Assembly: GCF_900105835.1 (NCBI RefSeq)
Contig: NZ_LT629783.1
Location: 4,114,501 to 4,178,500, forward strand
Source of the DNA: Pseudomonas fragi
GTDB lineage: Bacteria > Pseudomonadota > Gammaproteobacteria > Pseudomonadales > Pseudomonadaceae
DNA: 64,000 nt
Direction: 5' to 3'
Shown here in pieces: positions 12,037 to 20,103 of this stretch (position 1 is the stretch's first letter; every line of letters starts with the position of its first letter). The translations under genes were made by a program, and so were the position numbers. Below the pieces are notes generated by a model. That model saw nothing but the letters and a program-made list of their open reading frames with translations, did not search any database and was not told where the DNA came from.

Positions 12037-13620
12037 ATGACCAACCAGGCCGCCGAAGTCGCGAAACGCCGCACTTTCGCCATTATTTCCCACCCCGATG
12101 CGGGTAAGACCACCATCACCGAAAAGCTCTTGCTGATGGGTAAGGCGATTGCTGTCGCCGGTACGGTGAAATCGCGAAAGTCCGACCGCCATGCCACCTC
12201 CGACTGGATGGAAATGGAGAAGCAACGGGGTATTTCGATTACCACGTCGGTCATGCAATTCCCGTATCGCGACAACATGATCAACCTGCTCGACACCCCG
12301 GGCCACGAAGACTTCTCCGAAGACACCTACCGCACATTGACGGCGGTCGACTCGGCGCTGATGGTCCTCGACGGCGGTAAGGGTGTTGAGCCTCGTACCA
12401 TCGCCCTGATGGACGTTTGTCGTCTGCGTGACACGCCTATCGTCAGCTTTATCAACAAACTCGACCGCGACATTCGCGACCCGATCGAGTTGCTGGACGA
12501 GATCGAAGCAGTCCTGAAAATCAAGGCAGCGCCGATCACCTGGCCGATCGGCTGCTACCGTGATTTCAAGGGTGTTTACCACCTGGCGGACGACTACATC
12601 ATTGTCTACACCGCCGGTCACGGTCACGAACGCACCGAAACCAAGATCATCGAAAAACTCGATTCCGACGAAGCCCGCGCGCATCTGGGTGACGAGTACG
12701 ATCGTTTTGTTGACCAGTTGGAGCTGGTTCAGGGCGCTTGCCATGAATTCAACCAGCAGGAGTTCCTGGATGGTCAGTTGACCCCGGTGTTCTTCGGTAC
12801 GGCACTGGGCAACTTTGGTGTTGACCACGTGCTCGACGCGGTAGTGGACTGGGCGCCGAAGCCGTTGGCCCGTGTTGCCAACGAGCGCACGGTCGAGCCG
12901 GTAGAAGAGAAATTCACCGGTTTTGTGTTCAAGATCCAGGCGAACATGGACCCAAAACACCGCGACCGCATCGCCTTTATGCGCATTTGCTCGGGCAAGT
13001 ACGAAAAGGGCATGAAAATGCGCCATGTGCGCACCGGCAAGGACGTGCGTATCGGCGATGCCCTGACGTTCTTCTCCTCCGAGCGTGAACAGCTCGAAGA
13101 GGCCTTTGCGGGCGATATCATCGGTTTGCACAACCACGGCACCATCCAGATCGGTGATACCTTCACCGAGGGTGAGAGCCTGAGCTTTACCGGTATCCCG
13201 CACTTTGCCCCGGAACTGTTCCGTCGCGTGCGCCTGCGCGACCCGCTCAAGTCCAAGCAATTGCGCCAGGGCTTGCAGCAACTGGCCGAAGAGGGCGCCA
13301 CCCAGGTGTTCTTCCCGGAGCGCAGCAACGACATCATTCTGGGCGCCGTGGGTGTGCTGCAGTTCGACGTGGTCGCCAGCCGCTTGAAGGAAGAATACAA
13401 AGTGGAATGCTCCTACGAGCCGATCACCGTGTACTCGGCGCGCTGGATTGATTGCGACGATAAGAAGAAGCTTGAAGAGTTCAGCGTCAAGGCGGTGGAA
13501 AACCTGGCTGTGGACGGTGGTGGTCACCTGACCTACCTGGCCCCGACTCGCGTTAACCTGGCGTTGATGGAAGAACGCTGGCCGGATGTGAAATTCCGCG
13601 CAACCCGCGAGCATCACTAA
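12037..13620 (+). CDS. prfC: Peptide chain release factor 3
   Basis: Translational GTPase of 527 residues (family length 527-530) that recycles RF1/RF2 from the ribosome after peptide release. G-motifs are intact: P-loop SHPDAGKTT (18-26), switch region with the RF3-type [24 protein letters not shown], and NKLD. A beta-barrel domain II and the RF3-specific C-terminal domain follow. It stands alone, with its own promoter and a strong terminator after the stop. Confidence 0.97.
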
Positions 13621-13684: not shown

Positions 13685-13769
13685 TGTAGTCACTGCCGAA
13701 GGCTGCGATCGCGGCCTGAGTAGCGCGAAGGCCCTGTAGTCCTAATCGCAGCCTCCGGCAGCGGCTACA
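13685..13769. repeat. REP-like inverted repeat, class A
   Basis: Arms TGTAGTCACTGCCGAAGGCTGCGA and TCGCAGCCTCCGGCAGCGGCTACA face each other. It lies between the prfC terminator and the pyocin gene, at the edge of the accessory island. Confidence 0.8.
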
Positions 13770-13907
13770 AAATTATGGGAACTTTCTCTCGTTATTTATA
13801 GATACTTGCTTGGCTGTTGAGGTGTATTTCATAAATTAATGTGCGTAACGCGCGTTATTAAATTCATTGGTCGTATCGAGATCGGGTAATGAAAGGAGTG
13901 CAGCTCA

Positions 13908-16157
13908 ATGCCTAATGATGTAGACAAGTATTTGGGGCCTCACAGGAAAATTGGTCCTGACTCATATGAGTTGGCGCCATATCCCATTGTAGGGAAATGG
14001 GAGTCAGATATTAAGTTTGGTGGCGGATACAACTCATGGGGGCTGAATGAAGGGCCGCGCAGAGGAGAGGGCGGGCCGAGCAATATTCATGAAGTTGCAA
14101 AGCCAAATGTTGTTGCGGAATTCATGAATGAACAAATCCACAATCAGGCAGATATTGATGGCGACTATATTGCCCGATTCAAAAATCTCTTGGGTGATAT
14201 TGGTCGGGAGCTGCAAGAAAGAAAATTGCTTGCCCAGGGCGCCAAGACACACGGAGCTGCGGACTCAGCGGTAATAGATCAACAGGTTGCTTTGGAGCTT
14301 ATTGAGTCGAAAAGGCAACAGTACACATCCATTGCGCCTGATATATATGGGCTTTATGGGCAAAGTCCCTATTTTTTGATGACGTTGCTGTCGAGCCAGA
14401 AAATAAACGATTTTTTTAACAGGGATAATGGAAGTAATCCTCGCGAAAGTTTTATGGCGTTGTTCGCCCAGTTTGATCATGTGTATAAATCGGCAATGGC
14501 TCTCAAGGTGCTTGCTCTTTCCACGGATATGCTTGCGGGCAAGCTTGCCGAATTGGCGCAGCAAGTAGAGCGCATGCAAGGTGCTGCCAATGACGCAGCT
14601 GCTTATCAGCGTTTGGGCATTATCAACCAGGAGCAGGCTATACACGCTCAGCAACTGCCGCAGTTCCTCCATACCGAGTTCGTCACTGCGGCGGGTTCAG
14701 TGGCAGGTATGACGGCCTCTGAAGCGTTGAGCCACTTCAAGGAGACGCTGACAAGCATGGCCGCGTCTAAAACTGCTGAAATCAAACCTGTTTCCGCGGC
14801 CCCGCCGCTCAGCAGGGGCGGGATTACAATCAACTTTCCAGCAGAGAATCCGAAAATCAAGGCTCCTTTGAGCAAGCCTGAGCTGGAGGCGCTCAACGAG
14901 TTGGTTTACTTGCAAACTCATACGAACTTGGGAACCAAGTGGTTGAGTTATCACGATGCCTTATTGAAGGCTGAGTCGGCCAGGCATCTTGCGATAACCG
15001 GTAATTCATTTGGGGGGCTGGCTGAGCGGGCAAAGCGAATTGAACACACTATTCGTAAAGCCAATACGTTTAGTGCACCGGGTCCATCATCAGCGACAAG
15101 CCCCCTGCTTGTCACTTCGGCGGGGACTGTAGCGGTTATTGATGCAGCGGCGGTTACTCTGCAAGCGGCTGTACGTTCTGCCATTAGCGCCTTGTCCGGT
15201 TTGGTCGCGGGTACTGCTTCGGGGCTTTTGGTGGGTGTGTCTGCCTTGGTGTATTCGCCCAAGCTGGCAAATGGCGAATTGCCTGAGCGCTATGCATTTA
15301 GTACGCCGCTCTCGGATTTGGCGCCTGGGCTCAAGGATGATCTATCAACTATTGCTGCCGCCAATGGCAATGTTGATCTGCCAGTGCGTATCAGTTCTAA
15401 GACAGCTGCAGATGGGCAGTCTGAAGTTTTTGTCGCTTTGGCGGATGGCATAACTGTGCCGTCGAAAGTCAGGGTTGTAGCTGCAACGTTCAACGCCCAG
15501 CAGAATGTTTACAGCGTAACCACCGAAGATGTACCACCAAGGACGTTGACCTGGACACCCATCGTCGATCCGGGGAGTAGCTCGACTACTTCCCCTGCCG
15601 AGCAACCAGTGCCAACGGTCTACACTGGCGCCACTGTCACGCCGGTGACGGGAAGAATTGATGCCTTCCCGGGACTTGCTGAAGCGGGTTTTAATGATTT
15701 TATTACGGTATTCCCGGCGAGTTCCGGTTTACCGCCGCTGTATGTGATGTTCAGAGACCCCCGTGAGGATGCAGGGGTTGCAACGGGGATGGGGCAGCCA
15801 GTGACAGGCATTTGGTTGGGGACTGCGGCGCAGGGTGAGGGGGCTCCTGTACCGTCACAGATTGCTGATCAGCTTCGGGGGAGGGAGTTCAAGAATTTCA
15901 AGGCGTTTCGAGAGGCGTTTTGGGTAGAGGTAACGAAAGATCCGGTGCTGTCACAGCAGTTTATAGCTCCAAATAGAGCTCGAATGAGCATTGGTAAAGC
16001 AGCTAAGACCAGAAAAACTGATGCCGTGGGCAAGCGGTCCACATTTGAAATTCATCATGTCCATGAAGTCGCTAAGGGGGGAGATATTTATAATGTTGAG
16101 AATATGTTGATCTTGACCCCCAAGCGTCACTTGGATATTCATAAAGGAGCTAAATAA
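13908..16157 (+). CDS. S-type pyocin with colicin-E9-type HNH DNase domain
   Basis: Bacteriocin of 749 residues that should kill related pseudomonads by degrading their DNA. The N-terminal 400 residues are mostly helical and not recognisable as a known receptor-binding domain. A hydrophobic Ala/Gly/Val-rich segment spans about 405-448, followed by a Pyocin_S-type translocation domain (about 490-560, LPVRISSKTAADG...) and a Ser/Thr/Pro linker. Residues 617-749 are the DNase: PVPSQIADQLRGREFKNF, an Arg six residues before His716, and the HH...N...HxxxH core at His716, His717, Asn732, His741 and His745. This is the same length as the colicin E9 nuclease (about 134 residues). Start at 13908 has the ribosome site AAAGGAG. 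The gene is AT-richer than its neighbours. The immunity gene overlaps the stop by one base. Confidence 0.93.
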   Translation: MPNDVDKYLGPHRKIGPDSYELAPYPIVGKWESDIKFGGGYNSWGLNEGPRRGEGGPSNIHEVAKPNVVAEFMNEQIHNQADIDGDYIARFKNLLGDIGRELQERKLLAQGAKTHGAADSAVIDQQVALELIESKRQQYTSIAPDIYGLYGQSPYFLMTLLSSQKINDFFNRDNGSNPRESFMALFAQFDHVYKSAMALKVLALSTDMLAGKLAELAQQVERMQGAANDAAAYQRLGIINQEQAIHAQQLPQFLHTEFVTAAGSVAGMTASEALSHFKETLTSMAASKTAEIKPVSAAPPLSRGGITINFPAENPKIKAPLSKPELEALNELVYLQTHTNLGTKWLSYHDALLKAESARHLAITGNSFGGLAERAKRIEHTIRKANTFSAPGPSSATSPLLVTSAGTVAVIDAAAVTLQAAVRSAISALSGLVAGTASGLLVGVSALVYSPKLANGELPERYAFSTPLSDLAPGLKDDLSTIAAANGNVDLPVRISSKTAADGQSEVFVALADGITVPSKVRVVAATFNAQQNVYSVTTEDVPPRTLTWTPIVDPGSSSTTSPAEQPVPTVYTGATVTPVTGRIDAFPGLAEAGFNDFITVFPASSGLPPLYVMFRDPREDAGVATGMGQPVTGIWLGTAAQGEGAPVPSQIADQLRGREFKNFKAFREAFWVEVTKDPVLSQQFIAPNRARMSIGKAAKTRKTDAVGKRSTFEIHHVHEVAKGGDIYNVENMLILTPKRHLDIHKGAK

Positions 16158-16420
16158 TGGAGCTGAAAAGCAGTTTCTCAGAGTATACGGAAGCCGAGTT
16201 CTTGGTGTTTATGAAAGAAATATTCCAGGAGAACGTTGCTGAAACTGATGAGCACCTTGACAAACTTCTGGAGCATTTTGAAAAGATCACTGAGCATCCT
16301 GAAGGGACAGATCTTATCTACTATGCCGCATCTGATTTGGACAGCACGCCAGAAGCTATAACCAAGAAAGTCAGTGAGTGGCGAGCCGCCAACGGTAAGC
16401 CTGGCTTCAAACCGGCTTAA
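16157..16420 (+). CDS. Colicin/pyocin DNase immunity protein (Im9 family)
   Basis: Acidic protein of 87 residues, the standard Im2/Im7/Im8/Im9 length. The conserved helix III motif HPEGTDLIYYA (the DLIYYP-type element that contacts the nuclease) and the C-terminal WRAANGKPGFKPA are present. The more variable helix II (NVAETDEHLDKLLEHF) sets specificity in this family. The ATG shares its A with the pyocin TAA stop, and its ribosome site AAGGAGC lies inside the pyocin gene, so translation is coupled and the toxin is neutralised as it is made. A terminator follows. Confidence 0.95.
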   Translation: MELKSSFSEYTEAEFLVFMKEIFQENVAETDEHLDKLLEHFEKITEHPEGTDLIYYAASDLDSTPEAITKKVSEWRAANGKPGFKPA

Positions 16421-16524: not shown

Positions 16525-16617
16525 TGTAGGCGCTGCCGAAGGCTGCGATCGCGCCCGAAGCAGTTTACGACTGCTACGCAGCCGGACGTAGCCTCGCGCT
16601 GCTCGTCAACTGCTACA
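16525..16617. repeat. REP-like inverted repeat, class A (imperfect)
   Basis: It starts TGTAGGCGCTGCCGAAGGCTGCGA and ends in GCTCGTCAACTGCTACA, with an inner second hairpin (AGCAGTTTACGACTGCT). The outer arms are diverged, suggesting an older copy. Confidence 0.65.
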
Positions 16618-16763
16618 AGGGAGCGTATGCCCCGCCATACAGTATCGACAAAAGCGGCTGTGTTACTCCGAATGGGTATATCGCAACCTGCGTGTTTCTG
16701 GAAAAGCTAAAGGGGGCGAACTAGGTTTAAAGGGTATTTCTCACACACAGGATGGAAATCTCC

Positions 16764-17075
16764 ATGAAGCTTTTTCAACGCATTGTGCTGTTGCTCAAGG
16801 TGCTGGTGCTGCTGACGGTGAGTGCTTCGGCCGCTTGGGCCAGCAACCCGCTGAGCAGTGCCGGGGCAGGGTTCTCGGCTATGGGCGTGCCGGGGCCGAC
16901 GATTCATGCCATCTACAAGTCGGATTCGGAACCGGGTGATCAGGGCCAGGGCGGCAGTTCGGGGGATGATGACCAGACCGACGGTGACGGCGGCGCAGAT
17001 GGTGGTGGTAGCGGTGACGGTGGGGATAACGGCGATGATGGTGACGCGGGGGACGAAGGCGATAGCCAGACGTAG
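16764..17075 (+). CDS. Small secreted Gly/Asp-rich acidic protein, function unknown
   Basis: Short protein of 103 residues from the ATG at 16764 (MKLFQRIVLLLKVLVLL); an ATG 12 bases upstream is also possible. A hydrophobic signal peptide ending near ASAAWA is followed by about 30 ordinary residues and then a 50-residue tail made nearly only of Gly, Asp, Ser, Glu and Gln. The tail is strongly acidic and likely disordered; such Asp/Gly-rich tracts can bind calcium, but the nonapeptide of RTX proteins is absent. The gene is flanked by class A repeats and shows no operon partner. The coding call rests on the signal peptide and on the frame staying open through biased composition. Confidence 0.6.
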   Translation: MKLFQRIVLLLKVLVLLTVSASAAWASNPLSSAGAGFSAMGVPGPTIHAIYKSDSEPGDQGQGGSSGDDDQTDGDGGADGGGSGDGGDNGDDGDAGDEGDSQT

Positions 17076-17090
17076 TGGTGTGCACATATG

Positions 17091-17230
17091 TGTAGCAGCT
17101 GCCGAAGGCTGCGTTCGGTTACGAAGCAATCGTAAAACCTGAGCGTGCGGTGTGTCTGTTACTCCGCGGGCCTCGATTTTACGACGGCTGCGCCGCCGAA
17201 CGCAGCCTTCGTTCCTCGGCAGCTGCTACG
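17091..17230. repeat. REP-like inverted repeat, class A
   Basis: Outer arms TGTAGCAGCTGCCGAAGGCTGCGTTCGG and CCGAACGCAGCC...GGCAGCTGCTACG surround a second inner pair (CGTAAAACCT / ATTTTACG). It separates the small secreted protein from the end of dppF. Confidence 0.85.
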
Positions 17231-17238
17231 GGTCGTGT

Positions 17239-18213
17239 TTAGCTCTGTAAAAACTGCTCCGCGTGATGGCACGCAACCTGGCGGTTATCGAGCACCCGCA
17301 ACGCCGGCTCGACTGTGCTGCACAGCTCCGTGGCATACGGGCAGCGCTTGTGGAAGGCGCAACCCGATGGCGGGTTCAGCGGGTTGGGCAGCTCGCCGAC
17401 GATCTTGATCTTCGGCTTGAGCGGGTCCGGGTGGATGGTCGGGGTGGCCGACAGCAGTGCCTGGGTGTAGGGGTGCAGCGGCCGGGTGTAGATCTCTTCC
17501 TTGGGGCCCATTTCTACCGGGCGGCCCAGGTACATCACCAGTACCGTGTCAGCCACATGCCGCACCACCGCCAGGTTGTGCGAGATAAACACGTAGGCAG
17601 TGTTGAACTCTTGCTGCAAATCCATAAACAGGTTGAGCACCTGCGCCTGGATCGATACGTCCAGCGCCGAGGTCGGTTCATCCGCCACCAGCACCTTGGG
17701 TTGCAGCATCATGGCCCGGGCCAGGGCGATACGCTGGCGCTGGCCGCCCGAGAACATATGCGGGTAGCGCTGGTAATGCTCGGGGCGCAAGCCAACCTGT
17801 TTCATCATGGCCTGGACTTTTTCGCGACGTTCGCTGGCGTTCAGTTTGGTGTTGATCAATAGCGGTTCAGCCAACTGGTCGCCGATTTTCTGCCGTGGGT
17901 TGAGCGAGGCGTAGGGGCTCTGGAACACCATCTGTACGTCTTTGCGCAGTTGCTTGCGCTCGGCTTTGTTGGCCCCGGCGACTTCTTGCCCGGCAATTTT
18001 CAACGAGCCCGAGGACGGTTCTTCAATCAGGGTCAAGGCGCGGGCCAGGGTGGACTTGCCACAACCGGACTCGCCCACCACGGCCAGGGTTTTGCCGGCT
18101 TCCAGTTCAAATGACACGCCGTTAAGTGCGCGCACCAGGGCATGGCCTTTGAACATGCCACGGGACACTTCGTAGTGACGGGTTAGGTCGCGGGCGGTAA
18201 GAACAACAGTCAT
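17239..18213 (-). CDS. dppF: Dipeptide ABC transporter ATP-binding protein DppF
   Basis: ATPase of 324 residues powering dipeptide import. Walker A GESGCGKST is at 47-55, the Q-loop in VFQSPYASLNP, signature FSGGQRQRIALARAMML, Walker B VLVADEPTSALD. The oligopeptide-transporter C-terminal extension with its Cys-rich signature (CAFHKRCPYATELC) is present and in relatives binds an iron-sulfur cluster. The start at 18213 shares one base with the dppD stop, showing tight coupling. It is the last gene of the dpp operon. Confidence 0.93.
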   Translation of the reverse strand: MTVVLTARDLTRHYEVSRGMFKGHALVRALNGVSFELEAGKTLAVVGESGCGKSTLARALTLIEEPSSGSLKIAGQEVAGANKAERKQLRKDVQMVFQSPYASLNPRQKIGDQLAEPLLINTKLNASERREKVQAMMKQVGLRPEHYQRYPHMFSGGQRQRIALARAMMLQPKVLVADEPTSALDVSIQAQVLNLFMDLQQEFNTAYVFISHNLAVVRHVADTVLVMYLGRPVEMGPKEEIYTRPLHPYTQALLSATPTIHPDPLKPKIKIVGELPNPLNPPSGCAFHKRCPYATELCSTVEPALRVLDNRQVACHHAEQFLQS

Positions 18214-19181
18214 TACGCCACCTCCTGATTCAAGGGGAAGAAGCAGCGCACCTGGCTGTGAGCCTGTTGCTCCAGCGCAGGACGTTGTTGACGGCATTGT
18301 TCTTGTACATACGGGCAGCGCGGTGACAGCAGGCAGCCTTTGGGCCGGTCATAGCGGCCGGGCACGATGCCGGGCAAGGTCGACAGACGGGCAGCGCCCA
18401 TGCTGTGTTCCGGGATCGCGGCCAGCAGCGCCTCGCTGTACGGGTGCGCCGGTACATCAAACAGCCCCGGCACGTTGCCCACTTCCACGGCCTGGCCGGC
18501 GTACATCACGCATACCCGCTGGGCGGTTTCGGCTACCACGGCGAGGTCGTGGGTGATCAGCACCAGGCCCATGTTCTGCTCCCGTTGCAGGCTGAGCAGC
18601 AGGTCCATGATCTGCGCCTGGATGGTCACGTCCAGGGCGGTGGTCGGTTCGTCGGCAATCAGCAGTTTGGGTTCTCCGGCGATGGCCATGGCAATTGCCA
18701 CGCGCTGGCTCATACCGCCCGACAATTGGTGCGGGTAGGCATCCATACGGCTGGCGGCTCCCGGGATTTCAACTTTTTCCAGCAGCTCGATCGCACGTTT
18801 GCGCGCCGCCTTACCGGACATTTTCAGGTGCAGGCGCAGCACTTCTTCGATCTGGAAGCCCACGGTGTAGCTGGGGTTCAGCGCGGTCATGGGGTCCTGG
18901 AAGACCATCGCCATGTCTTTGCCGACGATCTGCCGACGTTGACGGGCGCTGAGGGTCAGCATGTTCTTGCCATCGAAGGTCAGGGCGTCGGCGGTGACGA
19001 TACCGGGGTGCTCGATCAGGCCCATCAACGCCATCATGGTCACGGACTTGCCCGACCCCGACTCGCCGACAATCGCCAGGACTTCGCCTTTATCCACCGA
19101 CAGGCTCAGGCCGTCGACTACGGGGACGGCGCTGGCGTCGCCAAAGCGCACGTTGAGATTCTTGATTTCTAACAGTGACAT
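18213..19181 (-). CDS. dppD: Dipeptide ABC transporter ATP-binding protein DppD
   Basis: Partner ATPase of DppF, 322 residues. Walker A GESGSGKS is at 39-46, signature [15 protein letters not shown], Walker [13 protein letters not shown], and the C-terminal Cys motif [14 protein letters not shown] matches the oligo/dipeptide ATPase tail. The start at 19181 (MSLLEIKNL) has a GAGGGGA ribosome site 8 bases upstream. Ten bases separate it from dppC and it overlaps dppF by one base. Confidence 0.93.
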
Positions 19182-19191
19182 GGGAATCCCC

Positions 19192-20103
19192 TCAGGCGGC
19201 GTTTTTGAGTTTCGGGTCCAGCGCATCGCGCAGACCGTCGCCCATCAGGTTGATTGCCAGCACGCTGAGCAAAATGGTCAAGCCGGGCAGGCTCACGACC
19301 CACCACGCACGTTCGATATAGTCGCGGGCCGAGGCCAGCATGGTGCCCCACTCCGGGGTTGGCGGTTGCACGCCAAGGCCGAGGAAGCCCAGGGCTGCAG
19401 CGTCGAGGATCGCCGAGGAGAAACTCAGGGTGGCCTGCACGATCAGCGGTGCCATGCAGTTGGGCAGCACGGTGATAAACATCAGGCGCGGCAGGCTGGC
19501 ACCGGCCAGGCGGGCAGCGGTTACATAGTCGCGGTTCAGTTCACCCATCACGGCGGCACGGGTCAGACGTACATAGGACGGCAGCGAGACCACGGCAATG
19601 GCGATCACGGTGTTGATCAGGCCAGGGCCGAGGATGGCGACAATCGCCACAGCCAGCAGCAGGGACGGCAGGGCCAGCATGATGTCCATCAACCGCATGA
19701 TGCCCGGGCCCATAAAACGCGGGAAAAACCCGGCAATCAGGCCCAGGATCACGCCCGGAATCAGCGAGATCACTACCGACGACAAACCGATCAGCAGCGA
19801 CAGGCGCGAGCCTTCGATCAGTCGTGACAGCAGGTCACGACCTAACTCGTCGGTGCCCAGCAAAAATTGCCACTGGCCGCCCTCCAGCCACACCGGCGGG
19901 GTCAGCAGGAAGTCGCGGTATTGCTCGCTCGGGCTATGGGGGGCGACCCACGGCGCGAAGATCGCGCAGAACACAATGATGCACATGAAAATCAGGCCCG
20001 CGACGGCGCCCTTGTTGCGGGAGAAGGCGTGCCAGAACTCTTTGTAAGGCGATGGATAAAGCAGGCTTTGATCCACTTCGGTCGTGCTTGGGGAGTTACT
20101 CAT
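19192..20103 (-). CDS. dppC: Dipeptide ABC transporter permease DppC
   Basis: Inner-membrane permease of 303 residues. An N-terminal cytoplasmic stretch precedes helix 1 ([21 protein letters not shown]), the OppC-type loop [17 protein letters not shown] follows, and the transport signature [20 protein letters not shown] contacts the ATPases. The start at 20103 ([10 protein letters not shown]) lies 10 bases downstream of the dppB stop. Confidence 0.92.

Follow-up and report, generated by a model that had tools for sequence, protein, structure and literature searches.

A predicted TonB-dependent DNase bacteriocin of Pseudomonas fragi whose targeting module recurs with different toxins in the genus

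What does an S-type pyocin use to find its target when its N-terminal part looks like none of the pyocins already described? The question is posed by a gene in a 64,000-nucleotide stretch of Pseudomonas fragi (NZ_LT629783.1, positions 4,114,501 to 4,178,500; the window from here on), whose source genome is a single contig of 5.07 Mb. The initial annotation had read positions 13908..16420 as a pyocin with classical nuclease, translocation and immunity parts, joined to an unrecognized receptor domain in residues 1-400. Those coordinates are correct, with the pyocin open reading frame (ORF) at 13908-16157 and the immunity ORF at 16157-16420. We consider it likely that the pair forms a TonB-dependent DNase bacteriocin operon, in which a first N-terminal domain would bind a TonB-dependent transporter and a second is predicted to bind a commoner surface component. 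The gene is a variation on known pyocins, and its targeting region comes from a large, little-studied family.

The classical character of the toxin end is borne out. By Pfam, the 749-residue protein matches Pyocin_S (PF06958) at residues 481-614 (E 3.9e-42) and Col-Pyo_DNase (PF21431) at residues 623-746 (E 4.5e-49) and, at E values up to 1, nothing else; it also gives the genome's only Pyocin_S match. The adjoining ORF is a Colicin_Pyocin immunity protein (PF01320, E 8.6e-31). Both the HNH motif of the colicin-type DNase domain (ExHHx14Nx8Hx3H, from residue 714) and the DPY motif of nuclease bacteriocins (D-x4-FP-x8-Y, as defined in PMC5536347; here DFITVFPASSGLPPLY at residue 597) are intact and, judged by its sequence, the locus is a real, intact-looking S-type DNase bacteriocin operon. 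The protein could instead be an effector of a type VI secretion system (T6SS) or another contact-dependent system rather than a diffusible bacteriocin: Pyocin_S domains are also described in T6SS effectors (PMC9040868), and the best NCBIfam match is a T6SS DNase effector model (NF047924, 190.8 bits, residues 488-745 only). However, that score lies far under the model's cut-off of 900, Pfam finds no PAAR, Hcp, VgrG or Rhs besides Pyocin_S and the DNase, and the N-terminal module is common to pore-forming colicin-like proteins and resembles S2 and S5. On its Pfam content and the NF047924 score we reject the effector explanation, which we hold to be very improbable.

The N-terminal region of this bacteriocin belongs to a widespread family. 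A search with residues 1-480, in which 7995 candidates were scored, retrieved at least 198 proteins with an E value of 1e-3 or lower, and comparison of 120 listed matches with the query delimits a common module at about residues 38-386, with a variable start and 24-81% identity among the matches listed. According to Pfam, the module is followed in relatives by a DNase, a pore-forming domain (PF01024), colicin D (PF11429) or E5 (PF12106). It is present in 35 of 398 genomes of the genus, the window's own included, and a species-level collection yielded 33 confirmed loci, an undercount because the scan relied on a single peptide pattern. All 33 are from Pseudomonas and none is titled aeruginosa; by tblastn their toxin ends are DNase (23), pore-forming (6), colicin-D-like (2), E5-like (1) and another domain (1). 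The module is thus widespread in Pseudomonas species other than P. aeruginosa. The window's own row matches no Pfam family at E 0.1, and none of 20 further module rows passed a cut-off, DUF6753 staying below threshold in two of them (22.1 and 18.3 of 27 bits). Nothing points to the module being carried by phages or plasmids: residues 1-400 found no match in the plasmid and phage collections, and 42 pattern matches in viral contigs gave no confirmed module. Among the open-licence papers listed, we recognized none on it.

How freely the module exchanges its toxin can be read from a quick tree of 55 modules, on which toxin type changes seven times (the minimum for five types being four) as against 19.6 times in shuffles; well-supported branches force fewer than seven changes, and two long branches are flagged. 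Toxin types are therefore mostly passed on together with the module, yet exchanges have occurred. Domains of tRNase type, colicin-D-like or E5-like, follow the module in P. batumici, P. gingeri, P. chlororaphis and other Pseudomonas (loci L110, L111 and L119; proteins P0025, P0058, P0068, P0071 and P0073); a survey from 2017 reports none of tRNase type outside P. aeruginosa (PMC5536347). At several loci (L103, L104, L113, L115, L117, L118, L122-L125, L129, L130, L132 and L133), the region downstream of the pyocin holds additional immunity-like genes, partial DNase-like sequences or both, which look like remnants of earlier toxin ends.

Is the receptor region then new? By plain sequence comparison it stands apart, as the initial annotation had proposed. 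BLASTP of residues 1-395 against seven P. aeruginosa proteins gave nothing credible, with scraps at E 0.44 or worse; these include pyocins S2 (P0122) and SX1 (P0184), named by their sources, and putative S4 (P0180), SX2 (P0185) and S5 (P0188), labelled from length and domains, and the comparison excluded the receptor regions of S1, S3, S6, S8-S12, AP41 and G. Profile searches of the PDB with alignments A1 and A2 likewise returned nothing significant at residues 1-370, the only pyocin in one of them being S2, at E 0.44. (A2 comprises the window and 28 of 30 genus loci, L021 being the window itself and L043 being excluded for an in-frame stop.) The claim of an unrecognized domain probably does not hold for residues 65-225, domain 1, whose predicted fold is like that of the S2/S5 receptor domain and whose profile bears a weak similarity to it. 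In structural alignment, domain 1 of the predicted model pairs with S5 residues 40-200, at 6-7% identity over the structurally aligned part. Compared profile to profile, domain 1 matches S2-family domain 1 at P 9.4e-5 (probability 59%; reversed control P 0.13), and the whole module, with 26 of the 29 A2 rows kept, matches the S2-family profile, which has five rows and omits S4 and P0194; this alignment covers 198 columns (P 2.6e-4, probability 42%; control 0.37). Run directly on N-termini, the module profile gives 38 bits for L138, a plasmid pyocin of P. ficuserectae, 24 for L137, a plasmid pyocin of P. aeruginosa, 17 for SX2, 16 for SX1, 14 for P0121 and 13 for S2, as against scores below zero for all nine reversed sequences and a maximum of 9.6 when the N-termini of L137 and L138 were shuffled 100 times (99 reported).

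The fold and kinship of domain 1 are supported, if not proven, by structure prediction and this weak profile similarity. Our confidence is moderate that it would fold as a kinked three-helix bundle, a divergent counterpart of the domains with which S2 and S5 bind their transporters, and moderate, not strong, that its sequence is that of a remote relative of the S2/SX type. Given this likeness in fold and profile, domain 1 is therefore probably not a new type of domain. Two observations concern these plasmid and S2-type pyocins. The L138 pyocin lies on a conjugative plasmid (NZ_CP085686.1), and from residue 291 to 666 it shares 73% identity with residues 374-749 of our protein, whereas its N-terminus is different. 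A 711-residue pyocin frame with the S2 receptor domain sits on an 847-kb P. aeruginosa plasmid (L135, NZ_CP131792.1), unlisted in the PLSDB gene table. A search for the S2 receptor domain in the family genomes, run without a positive control, found it in none of 398.

Domain 2 (residues 226-386) is the more conserved half. Averaged over A2 pairs, identity reaches 28.8% for domain 1, 41.0% for domain 2 and 55.0% for residues 312-362, and domain 2 exceeds domain 1 in 387 of the 401 pairs used (out of 406 from 29 rows, five being dropped for coverage). The same contrast is sharper among the S2, S5 and SX pyocins, where nine of ten pairs show 70-95% identity in domain 2 as opposed to 15-64% in domain 1, the near-identical pair S2-P0121 being omitted. 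In S5, the transporter is bound by domain 1 and a common polysaccharide by domain 2 (PMC7064778; also PMC10422930), and by analogy the two domains here may divide the labour in the same way.

Some of the comparisons weigh against equating this module with the S2/S5 arrangement. Domain 2 has no profile match with S2-family domain 2 (P 0.25, control 0.45) and instead faintly matches S2-family domain 1 (P 0.013, control 0.88), and domain 1 matches S2-family domain 2 as well (P 5.4e-4, control 0.13). The module profile scores low on S5 (4.6 bits), S4 (2.7) and P0194 (-7.3), and L138 and SX1 are only 26% identical in the domain 1 region (E 0.003). As for the fold of domain 2, the structural alignments with S2 and S5 end near residue 230, and a Foldseek alignment to S5 spans 318 columns but at E 0.19.

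Ahead of domain 1 lies a tail predicted to be disordered that holds two elements. Both predicted models place a weak beta-hairpin at residues 12-22, with mean pLDDT (predicted local distance difference test) of about 70 for residues 11-20 and 45-47 for 21-30. By eye, the family shares a hydrophobic strand, roughly E[IL]xPxxI, before a Gly-rich motif. This strand is a candidate TonB box; pyocin S2 has its TonB1 box within a beta-hairpin associated with a helical bundle (PMC10994204). The Gly-rich motif itself, WGLxxGPxRG, commonly takes the fuller form GGGY..GWGLxEGPRRGEGG. Its core pattern P.?RG occurs within the first 110 residues in 70 of 77 homologs (50 of 62 dereplicated proteins and 27 of 33 species-level loci, the rest being omitted as truncated, similar or with unclear starts) and nowhere in the remaining 29,982 residues of 50 checked proteins; one of the 70, L107, matches it elsewhere, its start probably having been called too far upstream. 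No stretch resembling WGLxxGPxRG was seen by eye in seven P. aeruginosa rows.

A short, predicted-disordered, Gly-rich motif with a conserved Trp, kept amid variable surroundings, confined to the N-terminus and unseen in those P. aeruginosa rows, could be a Tol-type or channel-binding epitope of the kind that E-group colicins have. Entry would then be independent of TonB, and the helical domains would only bind the surface. We find this unlikely, as domain 1 resembles domains of S2 and S5, which use transporters and TonB, and a TonB-box-like strand precedes the motif. It is also tempting to speculate about a separate, second targeting platform outside P. aeruginosa, made of a divergent bundle, a new surface-binding domain (226-386) and a new linear entry motif, WGLxxGPxRG. 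Domain 2 and the tail motif have neither a Pfam match over the cut-off in the rows scanned nor a solved relative by sequence. Such a platform is a possibility that we entertain tentatively and do not favour; if it exists, it would recognize a surface component that many Pseudomonas of the environment have in common, and toxins of DNase, tRNase and pore-forming type would all make use of it.

Under the TonB-dependent mode of action that we prefer, the 749-residue protein would be released in complex with its immunity protein and would kill related Pseudomonas by cutting their DNA. Targeting would be the task of the N-terminal module, here residues 1-386: the disordered tail may supply the TonB-box-like strand, with presumed use of TonB, together with the conserved WGLxxGPxRG; domain 1 (65-225) would bind one particular TonB-dependent transporter; and domain 2 (226-386) a commoner surface component, possibly a polysaccharide. 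The Pyocin_S, or inner-membrane translocation (IMT), domain would then move the DNase across the inner membrane. What the sequence data show directly is the architecture, the motifs, the pattern of conservation, the reuse of the module and the history of the site.

The history of the site bears on whether the bacteriocin was acquired, as the initial annotation supposed from AT-richness, position and flanking repeats. The pyocin gene has a guanine-plus-cytosine (GC) content of 0.513, the lowest of 44 window ORFs (mean 0.597, standard deviation 0.027; non-overlapping frames of at least 200 codons, mechanically chosen, some of which may be spurious), in agreement with the AT-richness noted before. 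It does lie between prfC (12037-13620) and a dpp block, represented by two ABC ATPases with an oligopeptide/dipeptide-transporter C-terminal domain (17239-19226). Repeats do flank the gene, with another REP (repetitive extragenic palindromic)-like copy at 17098, but the same 16-base repeat, counted with no more than one mismatch, has 82 copies genome-wide, which makes it uninformative, and we reject it as evidence of an insertion. None of the 18 same-genus genomes examined has the module downstream of prfC, over about 9 to 10 kb each and with prfC 90-98% identical; in 12 of them prfC and dppF are 0.66-5.5 kb apart, and six lack a dppF at 60% identity or more.

Occupation of the site is not unique to the source genome. 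The module occupies the prfC-dpp site in G265 and G137, two genomes chosen because they carry it, and in P. psychrophila DSM 17535, which could mean that the locus is old, vertically inherited or silent in its species group, instead of being an active bacteriocin that was acquired. Its intact frame and catalytic motifs, the retained immunity gene, its absence downstream of prfC in 18 of 18 genomes, 12 of them showing dppF, and the fact that two occupied sites differ in the DNase end with the rest kept make this quite improbable. Acquisition is plausible; the shared occupancy tempers it. As far as residue 614, the G265 and P. psychrophila proteins are 95-100% identical, and in the DNase that follows 71%: the toxin end turns over at a fixed site. 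Two near-identical pyocins at the prfC-dpp site (L099 and L101) differ chiefly in the DNase end, and their immunity genes are unequally similar to the window's (47% and 61%). A low-GC cassette with a major facilitator superfamily transporter and a DUF6002 protein sits between prfC and dppF in two relatives (L081, 5634-9245; L087, 1792-5516), and for this reason we take the gap to be a variable site. Among the 33 species-level module loci, prfC is visible in the flank of one.

Upstream of the gene, the usual four P-box repeats (consensus ATTGnnnGT, PMC4905994) are absent and a single P-box-like repeat was found; a PrtN-type gene is present in the genome, and pyocin S5 is described as outside PrtR-PrtN control (PMC4905994). 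Downstream, a small, Gly/Asp-rich ORF at 16752-17075 has, by eye, a signal-peptide-like start. Its counterparts adjoin dppF in relatives with and without a pyocin, and we reject it as a pyocin gene, since it is matched beside dppF also in pyocin-less relatives (G005, G017). The features of the locus are collected in Table 1.

Table 1. Positions in the window of the bacteriocin operon, its predicted parts and adjacent elements
Feature	Position	Strand	Basis or remark
REP-like pair, inverted, upstream, outside the bacteriocin	13692..13762	.	elements at 13692 and 13747
P-box-like repeat (ATTGnnnGT), single, weak	13866..13874	+	42 bp upstream of start codon
Probable ribosome binding site (aaaggag)	13892..13898	+	sequence
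S-type pyocin (DNase bacteriocin), 749 aa, ATG start	13908..16157	+	ORF call, Pfam
Residues 12-28, predicted weak beta-hairpin (12-22), then part of YELAPYPIV, candidate TonB box	13941..13991	+	
Residues 38-55, conserved Gly-rich WGLxxGPxRG motif, predicted disordered	14019..14072	+	
Residues 65-225, domain 1, kinked three-helix-bundle-like, putatively TonB-dependent-transporter binding	14100..14582	+	predicted structure, profiles
Residues 226-386, domain 2, helical, family-conserved, putatively binding surface polysaccharide or other common receptor	14583..15065	+	models, alignments
Residues 314-361, where the module is most conserved (NPxIxxPLSKPELEALxxLVxLQ...GxxWxxYHxALLxxESxRxL)	14847..14990	+	
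Residues 387-480, linker, hydrophobic stretches 400-418 and 426-450	15066..15347	+	low model confidence
Residues 481-614, Pyocin_S (IMT), DPY motif at residue 597	15348..15749	+	Pfam
Residues 623-746, HNH DNase domain	15774..16145	+	Pfam, motif from residue 714
Immunity protein, 87 aa, PF01320	16157..16420	+	start overlaps pyocin stop
REP-like element, downstream, outside the bacteriocin	16532..16547	+	

Several known systems resemble this bacteriocin in part. In residues 1-371, plain sequence comparison with pyocin S2 of P. aeruginosa, which uses the FpvAI transporter, finds nothing credible; the second domain of S2 is not similar to domain 2, and WGLxxGPxRG is not seen in it. Pyocin S5 (FptA, pore-forming) has, like the model of our protein, two helical parts at the N-terminus that one long, unbroken helix connects; module relatives carry pore-forming domains, and the A1 profile matches the S5 pore domain. 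It differs in its toxin domain, and domain 2 here is longer, with a small hairpin. Pyocins SX1 and SX2 (CrtA) share the order disordered tail, transporter-binding, polysaccharide-binding, IMT and toxin (PMC10422930) and reach 15-17 bits with the module profile, their N-terminal domains being unmatched by plain BLASTP. PmnH and PseuM are likewise modular bacteriocins of non-aeruginosa Pseudomonas that enter via a siderophore (ferrichrome) transporter (PMC5358913); they are much shorter, with ColM and pore-forming parts. The same module is carried by uncharacterized proteins, S-type pyocins and colicin-like pore-formers, from P. psychrophila, P. helleri, P. fluorescens and other sources, many of them with different toxin domains.

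For P. aeruginosa pyocins, the transporters FpvAI, FptA, Hur and CrtA have been named, and outside that species only PmnH and PseuM have a named (ferrichrome) transporter in the literature covered (PMC5358913). Domain 2 and the tail motif provide a defined module with which to ask which transporter and which surface component are used by many of the bacteriocins of environmental and food-spoilage Pseudomonas. Moreover, the contrast between the two domains predicts that strain range would be set by domain 1, with something common being bound by domain 2.
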